Source: Coriobacterium glomerans PW2
GTDB taxonomy: Bacteria; Actinomycetota; Coriobacteriia; Coriobacteriales; Coriobacteriaceae
Length of the DNA: 64,000 nt
Assembly (NCBI RefSeq): GCF_000195315.1
Contig: NC_015389.1
Coordinates: 124,001-188,000 of the forward strand
Direction of reading: 5' to 3'
The notes beneath the pieces were generated by a model. It worked only from the letters and a program-made list of their open reading frames with translations. It searched no databases and was not told where the DNA came from. Made by a program: the position numbers and the translations under genes. This document shows, piece by piece, positions 15,497 through 20,504 of the stretch; the stretch's first letter is position 1; every line of letters starts with the position of its first letter.

Positions 15497-16465
15497 ATGC
15501 ATACGAAGGTGCTTGCTGTCGGCAACGGCCGGTTCGCGCTTGATGCGGCGATCACGGTGACACCGGCGGGGATCGCAGTGGTCGCCTGCTCCTCCGGTCA
15601 CGCCCACATCGGTGCGACGGCGCAGGCTATCCCGCGACCGGAGGCCGATCGAAGCGCGACCGTCAGCATTTTGGCCGTTCCCTGTCATCGCGATGAGATC
15701 CCGGCGCATGATATCGCCTCGTCGCTCGCCACCCGCTTTCGCGTGCCCGTGGTCGCGTCTTGCGGGCTGCACATCGACAACGCAACCGGCGAGGATATAG
15801 ACAGGCTGCTGGCCGCAACACAGGATCTCATACATGAGATTGCTGATTATATCGACCGGCTGCGACGTTCGGCGTGGGACGATGAGGAAGACGTCGTAAC
15901 CGTGACGCGCGACGGCATCGCGACCGGAATCGTCTCGCGCTCGCGAGCGCATGCGGGCTCCGGCATGCTTCACAGGGCCTTCGCAACCGTTATCGTTCAA
16001 ACCGGTGCGCGGGGCCCTCACGTCATGTTGTGCCGCCGCTCGCCTGCAAAGCAGCTGTGGCCAAGCGTGCTCTCTGACAGCTGCGCCGGTCATACGCGTC
16101 CATCGGAGACCCTTGAGAGCGCTGTGCAGCGCAGGCTGCAAGAGGAGATCGGACTTTCGCGCGATGCCGTCTCCCTTGTACAGCTCGGCCATGTCGTATA
16201 CAGACAGAACCACGGAGACGGTCGCTGCGAATGCGAATGGTGCGCCGTTTTCGGCGGACTGATCAGCGAGGAGGATGCGCAGGAGCTGTCCGGCGGTTGC
16301 TCCCCTCAGGTGAACACCGAAGAGGTCTCCGAGGTCAGATTCGTGCCCTTCGACGAGATCGAAGGCTATCTCGATGGGGATCCGGAGCACCTGACACCCT
16401 GGCTTGCGCTTGCGTTGCGCGACCCCTCTATCTGGGGCGCTCTTCGCTCCCTTGCCGGAACCTGA
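15497..16465 (+). CDS. LpdD-like domain fused to an IDI-type Nudix domain
   Basis: The predicted cytosolic protein has 322 residues. Residues 1-113 resemble the LpdD-type prenylated-flavin chaperone-like domain found with gallate decarboxylases, including GHAHIGATAQA, ILAVPCHRDEIPAHDIA and CGLHIDNATGEDID. Residues 150-322 resemble type 1 isopentenyl-diphosphate isomerase: H152 and H159 (HAGSGMLH), H199 in SCAGHTRPSE, the Nudix helix SAVQRRLQEEIG, and E245/E247 in ECEWCAVF align with the metal ligands H25, H32, H69, E114 and E116 of E. coli Idi. The residue matching catalytic C67 is A197, with C196 just before it. IDI activity is therefore doubtful; DMAPP/IPP hydrolysis to the monophosphate used by UbiX is an attractive alternative. 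It lies 162 bp before the LpdC-type decarboxylase. The start follows GAGGAGG. Confidence 0.75.
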   Translation: MHTKVLAVGNGRFALDAAITVTPAGIAVVACSSGHAHIGATAQAIPRPEADRSATVSILAVPCHRDEIPAHDIASSLATRFRVPVVASCGLHIDNATGEDIDRLLAATQDLIHEIADYIDRLRRSAWDDEEDVVTVTRDGIATGIVSRSRAHAGSGMLHRAFATVIVQTGARGPHVMLCRRSPAKQLWPSVLSDSCAGHTRPSETLESAVQRRLQEEIGLSRDAVSLVQLGHVVYRQNHGDGRCECEWCAVFGGLISEEDAQELSGGCSPQVNTEEVSEVRFVPFDEIEGYLDGDPEHLTPWLALALRDPSIWGALRSLAGT

Positions 16466-16627
16466 GGCCGGATCGGCCGCGTCAGGTCGAGATGCGCCCC
16501 GCTCGCCGAATCTTTCGACGCCGGCGGTTGACCGTATTGCGGCAACATAGCGGAGCATGCGAGATGTATCAAAGATGCGCCCGGGTATCAGTCGCGGGCG
16601 TCAGGAGAAATGGGAAGCGGAGGAATC

Positions 16628-18106
16628 ATGGCAGACAGTATCACCGATCTGAGAAGTGCCATCGAGATGCTCGGCGAGATCGACGGGCAGATCATCGAAA
16701 CCGATGTCGAGGTTGATCCTTTGGCAGAGCTTTCGGGAGTGTACCGTCATATCGGCGCAGGCGGGACGGTGCAGCGTCCCACACGAGAAGGCCCCGCGAT
16801 GATCTTCAACAACATCTTGGGCCACCCGGATGCGCGGGTCATCATCGGTCTGCTCGCGAGCCGCAGGCGCGTCGGGTATCTTTTGGGTTGCGAGCCGAAG
16901 CGCCTGGGATTCCTGCTGAACGAGGCCGTCGCACATCCGGTCGCACCGGTCGAGGTCGAGGCGGATCAGGCGCTCTGCCAGCAAATAGTGCATCGAGCTG
17001 ATGAGCTCGGGTTCGATGTCCGAAAACTGGTGCCCGCTCCCACCAATACGTCCGAGGATGCCGGTCCCTATATCACGATGGGCATGTGCTATGCGCACGA
17101 TAGCCAGACCGGCGAGAGCGATGTGACCATCCACCGCCTCTGTCTTCAGGGGCCAGACACGATCTCGATGTACTTCGTGCCCGGTGCGCGGCACCTGGGG
17201 GTGATGCGCGAGAGAGCAGAGGCGCTCGGCAAGCCGCTGCCGATATCCATCTCAATCGGTGTCGACCCCGCGATCGAGATCGGTGCATGCTTCGAGCCGC
17301 CGACCACGCCGTTTGGCTACAATGAGCTCGGGGTTGCCGGAGCGATCAGAAACGAGCCGGTCAAACTGGCTCGCTGCCTCACCATCGATGAGCGCTGCAT
17401 CGCGAACGCCGAATACGTCATCGAAGGGGAGCTCCTTCCGAACACCTACGTAGAGGAAGACCAGAACACCGGAACGGGGAAGGCCATGCCGGAGTTCCCC
17501 GGCTACACCGGTGTCGCACCCAAGCGGGTGCCGGTCATCCGGGTCAAAGCGGTCACGACACGCCGGGACCCCATCATGCAGACAGTCATCGGTCCTTCCG
17601 AGGAGCACGTCTCCATGGCGGGCATCCCCACCGAGGCCTCGATCCTGTCGATGGTCGGCAAAGCTATGCCCGGGCGCGTGCTAAACGTGTACGCCGCCTC
17701 TTCAGGTGGCGGCAAGTACATGGCGGTCATCCAGTTCAAAAAATCCATGCCATCTGACGAGGGGCGCCAGAGACAGGCCGCTATCATCGCCTTCACAGCG
17801 TTTCCTGAGCTCAAGCATGTGTTTCTGGTCGACGAGGATGTGGATCCCTTCGATATGAACGACGTGATCTGGGCTATGAACACGCGCTTTCAGGGAGATG
17901 CCGACATCATCACCATCCCCGGGGTCCGCTGTCATCCGCTCGATCCTTCCGCAGACCCCTCCTGCGATTCGAGCATTCGCGATCATGGCATCTCTTGCAA
18001 GACGATATTCGATTGCACGGTGCCCTACGATCAGAAGGAGCGCTTCCGTCGCTCTCAATTCATGGATGTCGATCCCGCCAAATGGGTTCCCGGCTTCACG
18101 GATTGA
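16628..18106 (+). CDS. lpdC: UbiD-family non-oxidative hydroxyarylic acid decarboxylase, gallate-type (LpdC)
   Basis: The predicted protein of 492 residues has the full length of LpdC-type enzymes. Characteristic segments are VEVDPLAELSGVYRHIGAGG, VQRPTREGPAMIFNN, VPAPTNTSEDAGPYIT, PPTTPFGYNELGVAGAIRN, GPSEEHVSMAGIPTEAS, VDEDVDPFDMNDVIWAMNTR and RCHPLDPSADPS. From memory these closely resemble Lactiplantibacillus plantarum gallate decarboxylase LpdC. The family uses prenylated FMN and a divalent metal to decarboxylate gallate or protocatechuate (to pyrogallol or catechol). ATG at 16628 is preferred over 16610 because GGAGG (16619-16623) is well placed. Neighbours supply the cofactor (UbiX at 19001) and an LpdD-like protein (15497). 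Substrate identity is inferred, not shown. Confidence 0.85.
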   Translation: MADSITDLRSAIEMLGEIDGQIIETDVEVDPLAELSGVYRHIGAGGTVQRPTREGPAMIFNNILGHPDARVIIGLLASRRRVGYLLGCEPKRLGFLLNEAVAHPVAPVEVEADQALCQQIVHRADELGFDVRKLVPAPTNTSEDAGPYITMGMCYAHDSQTGESDVTIHRLCLQGPDTISMYFVPGARHLGVMRERAEALGKPLPISISIGVDPAIEIGACFEPPTTPFGYNELGVAGAIRNEPVKLARCLTIDERCIANAEYVIEGELLPNTYVEEDQNTGTGKAMPEFPGYTGVAPKRVPVIRVKAVTTRRDPIMQTVIGPSEEHVSMAGIPTEASILSMVGKAMPGRVLNVYAASSGGGKYMAVIQFKKSMPSDEGRQRQAAIIAFTAFPELKHVFLVDEDVDPFDMNDVIWAMNTRFQGDADIITIPGVRCHPLDPSADPSCDSSIRDHGISCKTIFDCTVPYDQKERFRRSQFMDVDPAKWVPGFTD

Positions 18107-18250: not shown

Positions 18251-18994
18251 ATGCAGTTCTTTCCGATCGGCATCATCATCAACGTCTCCGCAGTCGTGCT
18301 GGGCGGTCTGGCAGGAGCTTTGCTCGGCCCTTGGCTTCCCAAGGATCTGCGGAGCACGCTGAACCTCATATTCGGCGCATGCTCCATGACGATGGGGATC
18401 TCCTACATCGTCAAGCTGCAGACCCTCCCGGCGATCATGCTCACGGTTATCGTGGGCACGGCCATCGGGCACCTGATCCATCTCGAGGGGGGCATCTCAG
18501 CTGTCGCCCGGAGGCTTCAGGGCCCCGTTTCCGTGCTGGTGAAGTCCGAGCCCGCGGGCGATATGTCCGAGGATCAGTGGATGAACCGCTACATCGCGGC
18601 CGTCGTGTTGTTCTGCGCATCGGGAACAGGCATCTTCGGCGCGCTGCAATCGGGTCTCAGCGGCGACCAGTCCATCTTGATCTCGAAGGCCATACTCGAT
18701 TTCTTCACGGCCGCGATCTTTGCGGCCGACCTCGGATTCATGACACCGCTCATCGGCGTGCCGCAGCTGGTGGTCATGATGGTCCTGTTCATGCTCGCGG
18801 GCGTCATCATGCCGTACACCAATGAGATCATGGTATCTGATTTTCGCGCCTGCGGCGGCATACTCATGCTCTGTACGGGTATGCGCATCTGCGGTATCAA
18901 GAATTTTCCGATCGCGAACATGCTGCCCGCCATGATTCTCATCATGCCGATCAGTCATCTGTTCGCCGATGTGATCCTACCGCTTATCGGATAG
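18251..18994 (+). CDS. DUF554-family membrane protein
   Basis: The predicted protein of 247 residues has about seven hydrophobic segments and begins IGIIINVSAVVLGGLAGALLG, the start typical of DUF554 (YqgA/YdfK-like) inner-membrane proteins. A cytosolic loop around residues 85-115 carries charged residues (KSEPAGDMSEDQW). ATG at 18251 follows GAGAGGA. The function of the family is not established. Here it sits between the UbiD decarboxylase and its UbiX partner, with six bases to ubiX, so a role in moving the aromatic acid or phenol product is possible but unproven. Confidence 0.8.
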   Translation: MQFFPIGIIINVSAVVLGGLAGALLGPWLPKDLRSTLNLIFGACSMTMGISYIVKLQTLPAIMLTVIVGTAIGHLIHLEGGISAVARRLQGPVSVLVKSEPAGDMSEDQWMNRYIAAVVLFCASGTGIFGALQSGLSGDQSILISKAILDFFTAAIFAADLGFMTPLIGVPQLVVMMVLFMLAGVIMPYTNEIMVSDFRACGGILMLCTGMRICGIKNFPIANMLPAMILIMPISHLFADVILPLIG

Positions 18995-19000
18995 GGGCCC

Positions 19001-19570
19001 ATGATGAGCAGCGGCGCGCGCGTAGTTGTAGGGGTATCGGGTGCAAGCGGGGCGGCGCTCGCCTTGGAGTGTCTGAGGTGCCTCGCTGAGACCGAAGTCG
19101 AGAGCTGCCTCGTTCTCTCCTCGAATGCAGAGCTCACGATCAACCAGGAGCTCGGTATGAGCGTCGAGGAGTTCTCAGGACACGCCGATCGCGTCTTCGA
19201 CAACCGGAACATCGGCGCCTCGATCGCGAGCGGCACATTCAGAACGGATGGCATGATCGTGGCGCCTTGCTCGATGAAGACGCTGTCCGGGGTCGCCAAC
19301 GGTTTCTCGGAGAATCTGCTGCTGCGGGCAGCCGATGTCACGCTCAAGGAACAGCGTCCGCTCGTTCTCATGGTCAGGGAATCTCCGCTGAGCGCGATCC
19401 ATGTCGACAACATGGCCAAGCTCGCCCGTATTCCGGGTGTGGTTTTGATGCCGCCCCTGTTGACATTTTATAACGAGCCTACCAGCGTGGACGATATGGT
19501 GCACCATATCGTCTGCAAAGCTCTGCAGGTGTTCGATATCGAGTGCTCGGGTTTTCATCGCTGGTCGTAG
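19001..19570 (+). CDS. Flavin prenyltransferase, UbiX/LpdB family
   Basis: The predicted cytosolic protein of 189 residues starts with a Rossmann-like FMN site (VVVGVSGASGAALALE) and has the family blocks VAPCSMKTLSGVANGFSENL, LRAADVTLKEQRPLVLMVRE and PLSAIHVDNMAKL. UbiX-type enzymes attach a dimethylallyl group from DMAP (or DMAPP) to reduced FMN, making the prenylated FMN needed by UbiD enzymes such as the LpdC-type protein at 16628. It corresponds to LpdB of lactic acid bacteria. It follows the DUF554 gene by six bases with only a weak ribosome site (GGGG), suggesting coupling. ATG at 19004 is an alternative start. Confidence 0.87.
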   Translation: MMSSGARVVVGVSGASGAALALECLRCLAETEVESCLVLSSNAELTINQELGMSVEEFSGHADRVFDNRNIGASIASGTFRTDGMIVAPCSMKTLSGVANGFSENLLLRAADVTLKEQRPLVLMVRESPLSAIHVDNMAKLARIPGVVLMPPLLTFYNEPTSVDDMVHHIVCKALQVFDIECSGFHRWS

Positions 19571-19670
19571 AATCCGCGTGCGTTTGAGGCGGGTCTCATT
19601 CAAGCTCTTGAAAAATCACTCGGCATCGTCTGATTCGCGCGCGCAGCATTGTAGATGGAGGGGGGCTGCC

Positions 19671-20504
19671 ATGCACGGATTATATGAGATCAGCGAGATG
19701 GCGAGACTGTTCGATATCACGCGGCAGACGTTGATCTTCTACGACAAGATAGGCCTGTTCAGACCCGCGCGGGTAAATGGGCGCGGCTACCGATTCTACG
19801 CTCCGACTCAGATTCCCCGCCTGAGACTCATCTGCATCTTCAGGGATCTCGGTCTTGAGCTGAAGGAGATCAAACGCATAATGGGAGTCTGCGACACCCG
19901 CGCCATCTCGGATCACCTCCATGAGAGGCTCGATGTCATCGATGACCAGATCGCACGGCTCACGGCTCAGAGATCCTGCGTCGCTGAGAGGCTCTCCTTT
20001 TACAGCGAGGTCGAACGGTGGCGCAACCAGATCGATTCTCCGAAGCTTATGCATTTTCCCGAACGATACGTGGTTTTTGTTCCCTTTGAGACCGATGAGG
20101 TCGATCGCGGAGAGCTCCACGTGAATCTGATGCTCGCTGTGTCCAAGATGAAGGAGGCCGCTGGGATAGGTCCGGTTCGGGGGTGGGGAACCATGCTGTT
20201 GCAGGAATCGCTGCATCTTGAGACTCCCCTCGCCGGTGCGGGCACCTTCGTCGTGGTCCCTTCCGATATCGATCCTTCTGTTCTGACGAACGTCAAGATG
20301 TGTCCCGAGGGAACCTATCTGTGCATGTGCCGCTGGGGGATGCCCTTCGATGCATTTGGCATAAAACAGGCTGTCGAAGAGCTCGACAAACGCGGCCTGA
20401 AGGCGGTCGGCAACGCCTTTGACTTCTGTCTACTCGACACGACCTCATATAATGAGTTTCATGACGAGGACTTCTGCTGCATACAGATCCCCGTTGAGCT
20501 CTGA
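19671..20504 (+). CDS. MerR-family regulator with C-terminal effector domain
   Basis: The predicted protein of 277 residues has an N-terminal MerR winged helix (LYEISEMARLFDITRQTLIFYD, then KIGLFRPARVNGRGYRFYA), a coiled-coil dimerisation helix (residues about 75-115) and a C-terminal domain of about 150 residues with the alternating strand pattern of GyrI-like ligand-binding domains. ATG at 19671 follows a strong GGAGGGGGG site. It is on the same strand just after the ubiX gene, so it may sense an aromatic acid and control the decarboxylase locus. Such regulators often act on promoters with long 19-20-bp spacers. Confidence 0.85.
   Translation: MHGLYEISEMARLFDITRQTLIFYDKIGLFRPARVNGRGYRFYAPTQIPRLRLICIFRDLGLELKEIKRIMGVCDTRAISDHLHERLDVIDDQIARLTAQRSCVAERLSFYSEVERWRNQIDSPKLMHFPERYVVFVPFETDEVDRGELHVNLMLAVSKMKEAAGIGPVRGWGTMLLQESLHLETPLAGAGTFVVVPSDIDPSVLTNVKMCPEGTYLCMCRWGMPFDAFGIKQAVEELDKRGLKAVGNAFDFCLLDTTSYNEFHDEDFCCIQIPVEL

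Follow-up and report, generated by a model that had tools for sequence, protein, structure and literature searches.

UbiX takes DMAP as its prenyl donor (PMC10865409, PMC13040415), and the bacterial sources of DMAP that are named in the papers we found are all broad-range enzymes, namely NudB, NudF, NudI and NudJ of E. coli, and ThiM. According to PMC12359138, which cites Wang et al. 2018, these four Nud proteins carry out the reaction DMAPP to DMAP for prFMN, the same reaction as proposed below for the protein described here; the papers found do not present any of them as resembling IDI, as linked to UbiX or as part of a chaperone fusion. At the other end of the route, LpdD of L. plantarum binds prFMNH2 and aids the activation of UbiD (PMC10865409). 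The prFMN maturase PhdC (PMC13040415) is likewise a helper encoded, as a third gene, together with UbiD and UbiX in one operon, but it is an oxidase with a flavin-reductase fold and belongs to an unlike family. A UbiD-UbiX-NUDIX co-transcript of a benzene-degrading consortium has been interpreted as a hydroxylase candidate (PMC5852087), and its Nudix protein may be another UbiX-linked one. Our literature searches returned no paper that brings an IDI-like Nudix protein together with either LpdD or UbiX.

The window (the whole stretch of DNA that was analysed, 64,000 nucleotides) is part of the genome of Coriobacterium glomerans PW2, which consists of one contig of 2,115,681 bases. The genes and domains of interest are the following:

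15497..16465, + strand: LpdD-Nudix (IDI-like) fusion gene, a single open frame of 322 amino acids, first gene of the operon
15524..15853, + strand: LpdD/PAC_bac domain, residues 10-119 (PF21758, Foldseek 8po5), probable prFMNH2-binding chaperone
15881..16423, + strand: IDI-like Nudix domain, residues 129-309 (NF002995, PDB 1ow2 and further E. coli Idi entries, Foldseek E. coli Idi)
16076..16093, + strand: motif D194-S-C-A197-G-H199, with Idi N64 changed to D, C67 to A and H69 retained (tally of 24+3+73 sequences)
16610..18106, + strand: ubiD-family decarboxylase (Pfam UbiD), nearest solved relative the protocatechuate decarboxylase AroY (PDB 5o3n, E 2e-193)
18251..18994, + strand: DUF554 membrane protein (PF04474, E 6e-59), open reading frame from 18110 with a likely start near 18251
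19001..19570, + strand: ubiX flavin prenyltransferase (TIGR00421 and NF004685 above cut-off; PDB 1sbz, Pad1 6qlg)
19578..20504, + strand: MerR-family regulator (PF13411, E 4e-18), likely start near 19668, downstream position conserved in relatives

The same-strand order is thus fusion, UbiD, DUF554, UbiX and MerR, that is, a UbiX-UbiD prFMN operon, with the two cofactor genes, which the original prediction had next to the fusion, lying downstream of it. Upstream, on the opposite strand, lie a MarR-like gene and two ABC transporter genes. A DUF554 gene is likewise found between ubiD and ubiX in the operons of Collinsella vaginalis and C. tanakaei; the DUF554 protein is perhaps an aromatic-acid transporter.

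That the first gene joins an LpdD-like part to a type 1 IDI-like part had been proposed from the letters of the DNA, and profile, sequence and structure comparisons bear this out for both halves. The N-terminal half matches the PAC_bac/LpdD model PF21758 over residues 10-119 (E 1.4e-23, 83.2 bits against a gathering cut-off of 27), and in a profile search against the PDB the L. plantarum LpdD structures 8po5, 8pzh and 8p4w occupied ranks 1-3 (E 0.004-0.007). Residues 158-303 match the Pfam NUDIX model (E 1.8e-15, 57.6 bits against a cut-off of 21.1), which places the C-terminal half within the superfamily. The curated IDI models match it as well, although the scores stay under both thresholds: NF002995 covers residues 129-309 with 118.6 bits (E 2.3e-34), slightly below the cut-off of 127, and TIGR02150 yields 69.0 bits against a cut-off of 105.8. 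By sequence, the protein comes closest in the PDB to 1ow2, a chain of E. coli Idi that carries Ala67. An AlphaFold model, built on a 14-sequence alignment, had a mean pLDDT of 84 and a pTM of 0.62, and in Foldseek comparisons it matched E. coli Idi over one half, with TMt values of at most 0.85, and LpdD 8po5 over the other (TMt 0.77).

The LpdD half resembles its L. plantarum counterpart in fold, in its association with a UbiD decarboxylase and in the metal site. H37, H64 and D66, which are invariant among 14 sequences, align with H35, H61 and D63, the residues named for the Mn-site of LpdD (PMC10865409). On the basis of these similarities the half is a probable prFMNH2-binding chaperone. It differs from LpdD, which is a free protein of around 14 kDa, in that a Nudix domain of around 190 residues has been added.

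The Nudix half shares with the type 1 IDI of E. coli the fold, the metal and diphosphate ligands, Tyr104 and Trp161, and differs from it in having Ala, Asp and Arg where Idi has Cys67, Asn64 and Lys21. The metal ligands H25, H32, H69, E114 and E116 of Idi correspond to H152, H159, H199, E245 and E247, precisely the residue numbers put forward initially. The catalytic Cys67 corresponds to Ala197. Further equivalent positions are R148 (Idi K21), D194 (N64), E217 (E87), R181 (R51), K185 (K55), R213 (R83), Y235 (Y104) and W302 (W161). The clade to which the protein belongs was tallied as 24 sequences, including one broken copy (from Collinsella genome G232) without the last three of the tallied columns. 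K21R and N64D occur in 24/24, as does the replacement of Cys67 (23 Ala, one Ser), whereas position 67 is Cys in all 73 comparison IDIs. The clade retains H25 (23/24), H32, H69, E87, E114 and E116, and also R51, K55, R83 (23/24), Y104 and W161, as in the 73 Cys67-containing IDIs. Judged by these alignments, the Nudix domain is not simply an IDI minus its cysteine, as three residues have been altered together. E. coli YfcD, a relative and putative Nudix hydrolase, has the trio of the fusion protein, with R at Idi position 21, D at 64 and A at 67. YfcD, however, is without several of the Idi-type ligands, and its signature reads REAEEELG; the fusion protein scores 28.8 bits with the YfcD family model, far below the 118.6 bits that it reaches with the IDI model.

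The possibility that the catalytic cysteine is merely shifted was considered and rejected. The neighbouring C196 sits at Idi position 66, as the first Cys of a CC pair; it is Cys in 24/24 clade members and in 62/73 Cys67-containing IDIs; E. coli Idi has Val there. A cysteine that accompanies Cys67 in most IDIs and is absent from the E. coli enzyme is not a catalytic one. This bears on the view that the protein is still an isomerase, in which Cys196 or Asp194 took over the proton transfer so that the DMAPP pool for UbiX is enlarged. The invariance of Cys196 within the clade and the genuine Idi in the equivalent neighbourhood of Atopobiaceae (see below) would fit such a role, but we regard it as improbable, given that adjacent residues of a strand usually point to opposite faces and that IspH, which is encoded in the genome, already supplies DMAPP. 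Neither a type 2 IDI nor a second or housekeeping IDI was found in this genome. It encodes two further Nudix proteins, one of them ADP-ribose-pyrophosphatase-like and the other a fusion of MutT with Vsr. The fusion protein is therefore the only IDI-like protein of the genome, with DMAPP available from IspH. The MutT-Vsr protein, in which a MutT-like Nudix domain (NUDIX, E 3e-17) is joined to a Vsr mismatch endonuclease (E 1e-19), is encoded near position 1849616 (locus L019:1438-2385, + strand).

The Nudix signature GX5EX7REUXEEXGU is incomplete, in that Arg213 stands where REUXEE has its first Glu, a feature shared with IDI; the other positions are present. Hydrolysis would therefore have to rely on a metal site of the IDI type, and the absence of Cys67 is no guarantee of it. 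A regained EE in the Nudix box was discarded as a mark of hydrolysis, as the Glu there also occurs in 49/73 Cys67-containing IDIs. Together with the missing cysteine, the incomplete signature would suit a non-catalytic domain that binds DMAPP, DMAP or prFMN and serves UbiX and LpdD as a module for docking or delivery, and fusion to a chaperone would agree with such a scaffold. Considering that the metal ligands and the equivalents of E87 and E116 are retained, that the domain is under purifying selection, and that the standalone members in f11 and f12 genomes are encoded by unfused genes, this explanation is quite unlikely.

The domain make-up, the residue changes, the clade, the genomic linkage and the selection are matters of observation; the function has to be read from them. 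On balance we favour a dedicated phosphohydrolase that would convert DMAPP to DMAP, feed UbiX, and be coupled to a prFMNH2 chaperone. The IDI-like Nudix domain would bind DMAPP in the former isomerase pocket via the retained diphosphate and metal ligands, would no longer be able to isomerise it, and would most likely hydrolyse the terminal phosphate, which yields the prenyl donor of UbiX. The LpdD domain would then bind the UbiX product prFMNH2 and hand it over to the adjacent AroY-like UbiD; channelling, if any, would take place between the LpdD and Nudix domains. The fuller version of this proposal stands at about even chances: a dedicated DMAP synthase for prFMN, in which an IDI lineage was turned into a DMAPP phosphohydrolase by three linked substitutions and fused to the chaperone, so that donor supply and hand-over are united in one protein. 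DMAPP itself may serve as the substrate of some UbiX/Pad1 enzymes, which counts against a role in DMAP supply.

A Nudix hydrolase could also act on another substrate, for example by splitting FAD into FMN and AMP and so providing the FMN for UbiX, or by nucleotide clean-up. Promiscuity is frequent among Nudix enzymes, FMN is the other substrate of UbiX, and TubG, the Nudix protein of a UbiD-containing tubercidin cluster, acts on a nucleotide (PMC6112128). TubG was reported with a full Nudix motif, though, which the fusion protein lacks, and the prenyl-diphosphate pocket of Idi (R51, K55, R83, Y104 and W161) has been retained almost throughout the clade. Atopobiaceae, moreover, recruited a Cys-containing Idi into the same neighbourhood. 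Activity on a substrate other than DMAPP is thus unlikely. If the DMAPP phosphohydrolase reading is correct, the question of prFMN supply reduces to a simple enzyme assay, and the protein could help to make UbiD enzymes active in engineered strains. Since the papers found name none but broad-range enzymes as bacterial sources of DMAP, a linked and often fused IDI-like Nudix protein would be a dedicated one. It would also be a case in nature of an isomerase lineage that gave up its catalytic residue yet was maintained by selection, with a neighbouring reaction as the probable reason. Among the genomes with the gene are several Collinsella of the human gut; decarboxylation of catechols or gallate from the diet may be one of their activities.

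To specify the genomic association, a survey confined to the Actinomycetota was made, comprising 398 Coriobacteriia genomes (including 67 Coriobacteriaceae) and a 376-genome sample of the phylum. Within the Coriobacteriia, 52 genomes had PF21758 and 76 had IDI-like Nudix proteins. Every one of the 25 intact Cys-less members came from an lpdD-bearing genome (25/0/27/346 among the 398; p ~1e-25, uncorrected for kinship). Eighteen of them were fused to lpdD, and the other seven (including those of the f11 and f12 genomes) were standalone proteins whose genes adjoin ubiX/ubiD, around 1.3-3.0 kb away from lpdD. The fusion is present in many Collinsella genomes. The fusion was found in 16/17 UbiX-bearing against 2/50 UbiX-less Coriobacteriaceae (n=67; Fisher p 2e-12, kinship uncorrected), so that the expected tie of homologues to UbiX/UbiD neighbourhoods proved to be strong. 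The UbiX-bearing exception was C. tanakaei (G048), where the operon is the same but encodes a bare LpdD in place of the fusion. Outside the Coriobacteriaceae, PF21758 was absent from the 376-genome Actinomycetota sample, and among the plasmid matches listed the similarity was to the IDI-like region only.

Two Collinsella genomes (G108, and G235 with loci L010/L090) carried an intact fusion and neither UbiX nor a VdcC-type UbiD, which indicates that the fusion protein can persist, at least temporarily, without UbiX. These two genomes and the bare LpdD in the C. tanakaei operon speak against a strict dependence. A third, Collinsella G232 (L153), initially appeared to hold a Cys-less Nudix protein without lpdD; this was rejected, as the locus holds a disrupted copy of the fusion, with a truncated Nudix part and, in a different reading frame, a remnant of lpdD. 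This genome lacks UbiX and UbiD. The genes kept without UbiD/UbiX and the pseudogene in G232 are what one would expect of chance neighbours or of a decaying fusion with no specific role. Among close Collinsella copies, however, dN/dS was low (around 0.06-0.20 for the Nudix part and 0-0.31 for the LpdD part), and both halves are thus under purifying selection. With values near 0.1, a linkage that is repeated in several families and two separate recruitments, a role-less relic is highly improbable.

The second recruitment became clear from a tree of the IDI family that was built without the trait columns. The Cys-less, lpdD-linked proteins form one clade (support 97/86), with a group that has Ser instead of Cys67 as its sister (99/89). 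This Ser67 group (L095-L097, L149-L151), from other Actinomycetota (G481, G501 and G617), had no ubiX, ubiD or lpdD inside around 5-8 kb, and loss of the cysteine alone therefore does not amount to UbiX linkage. In six genomes of the Atopobiaceae (L066, L068, L069, L071, L079 and L076; the family label for this group, f2, is inferred from Olsenella porci falling within it), a genuine Cys67-containing Idi adjoins lpdD, with ubiX close by; the Idi of G338 (L076), one of the six, is fused to LpdD. Of the initial interpretation, the fusion, the loss of the cysteine, the kept ligands and the context stand, and do so in many genomes, and the suggested conversion of DMAPP to DMAP for UbiX is the reading with the best support; the three joint substitutions, the Cys-containing Idi recruited elsewhere and the two genomes without UbiX/UbiD qualify it. 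The Atopobiaceae proteins nest deep among the Cys67-containing IDIs and apart from the Cys-less clade, and so two IDI-family lineages joined one cofactor neighbourhood, each yielding a fusion.
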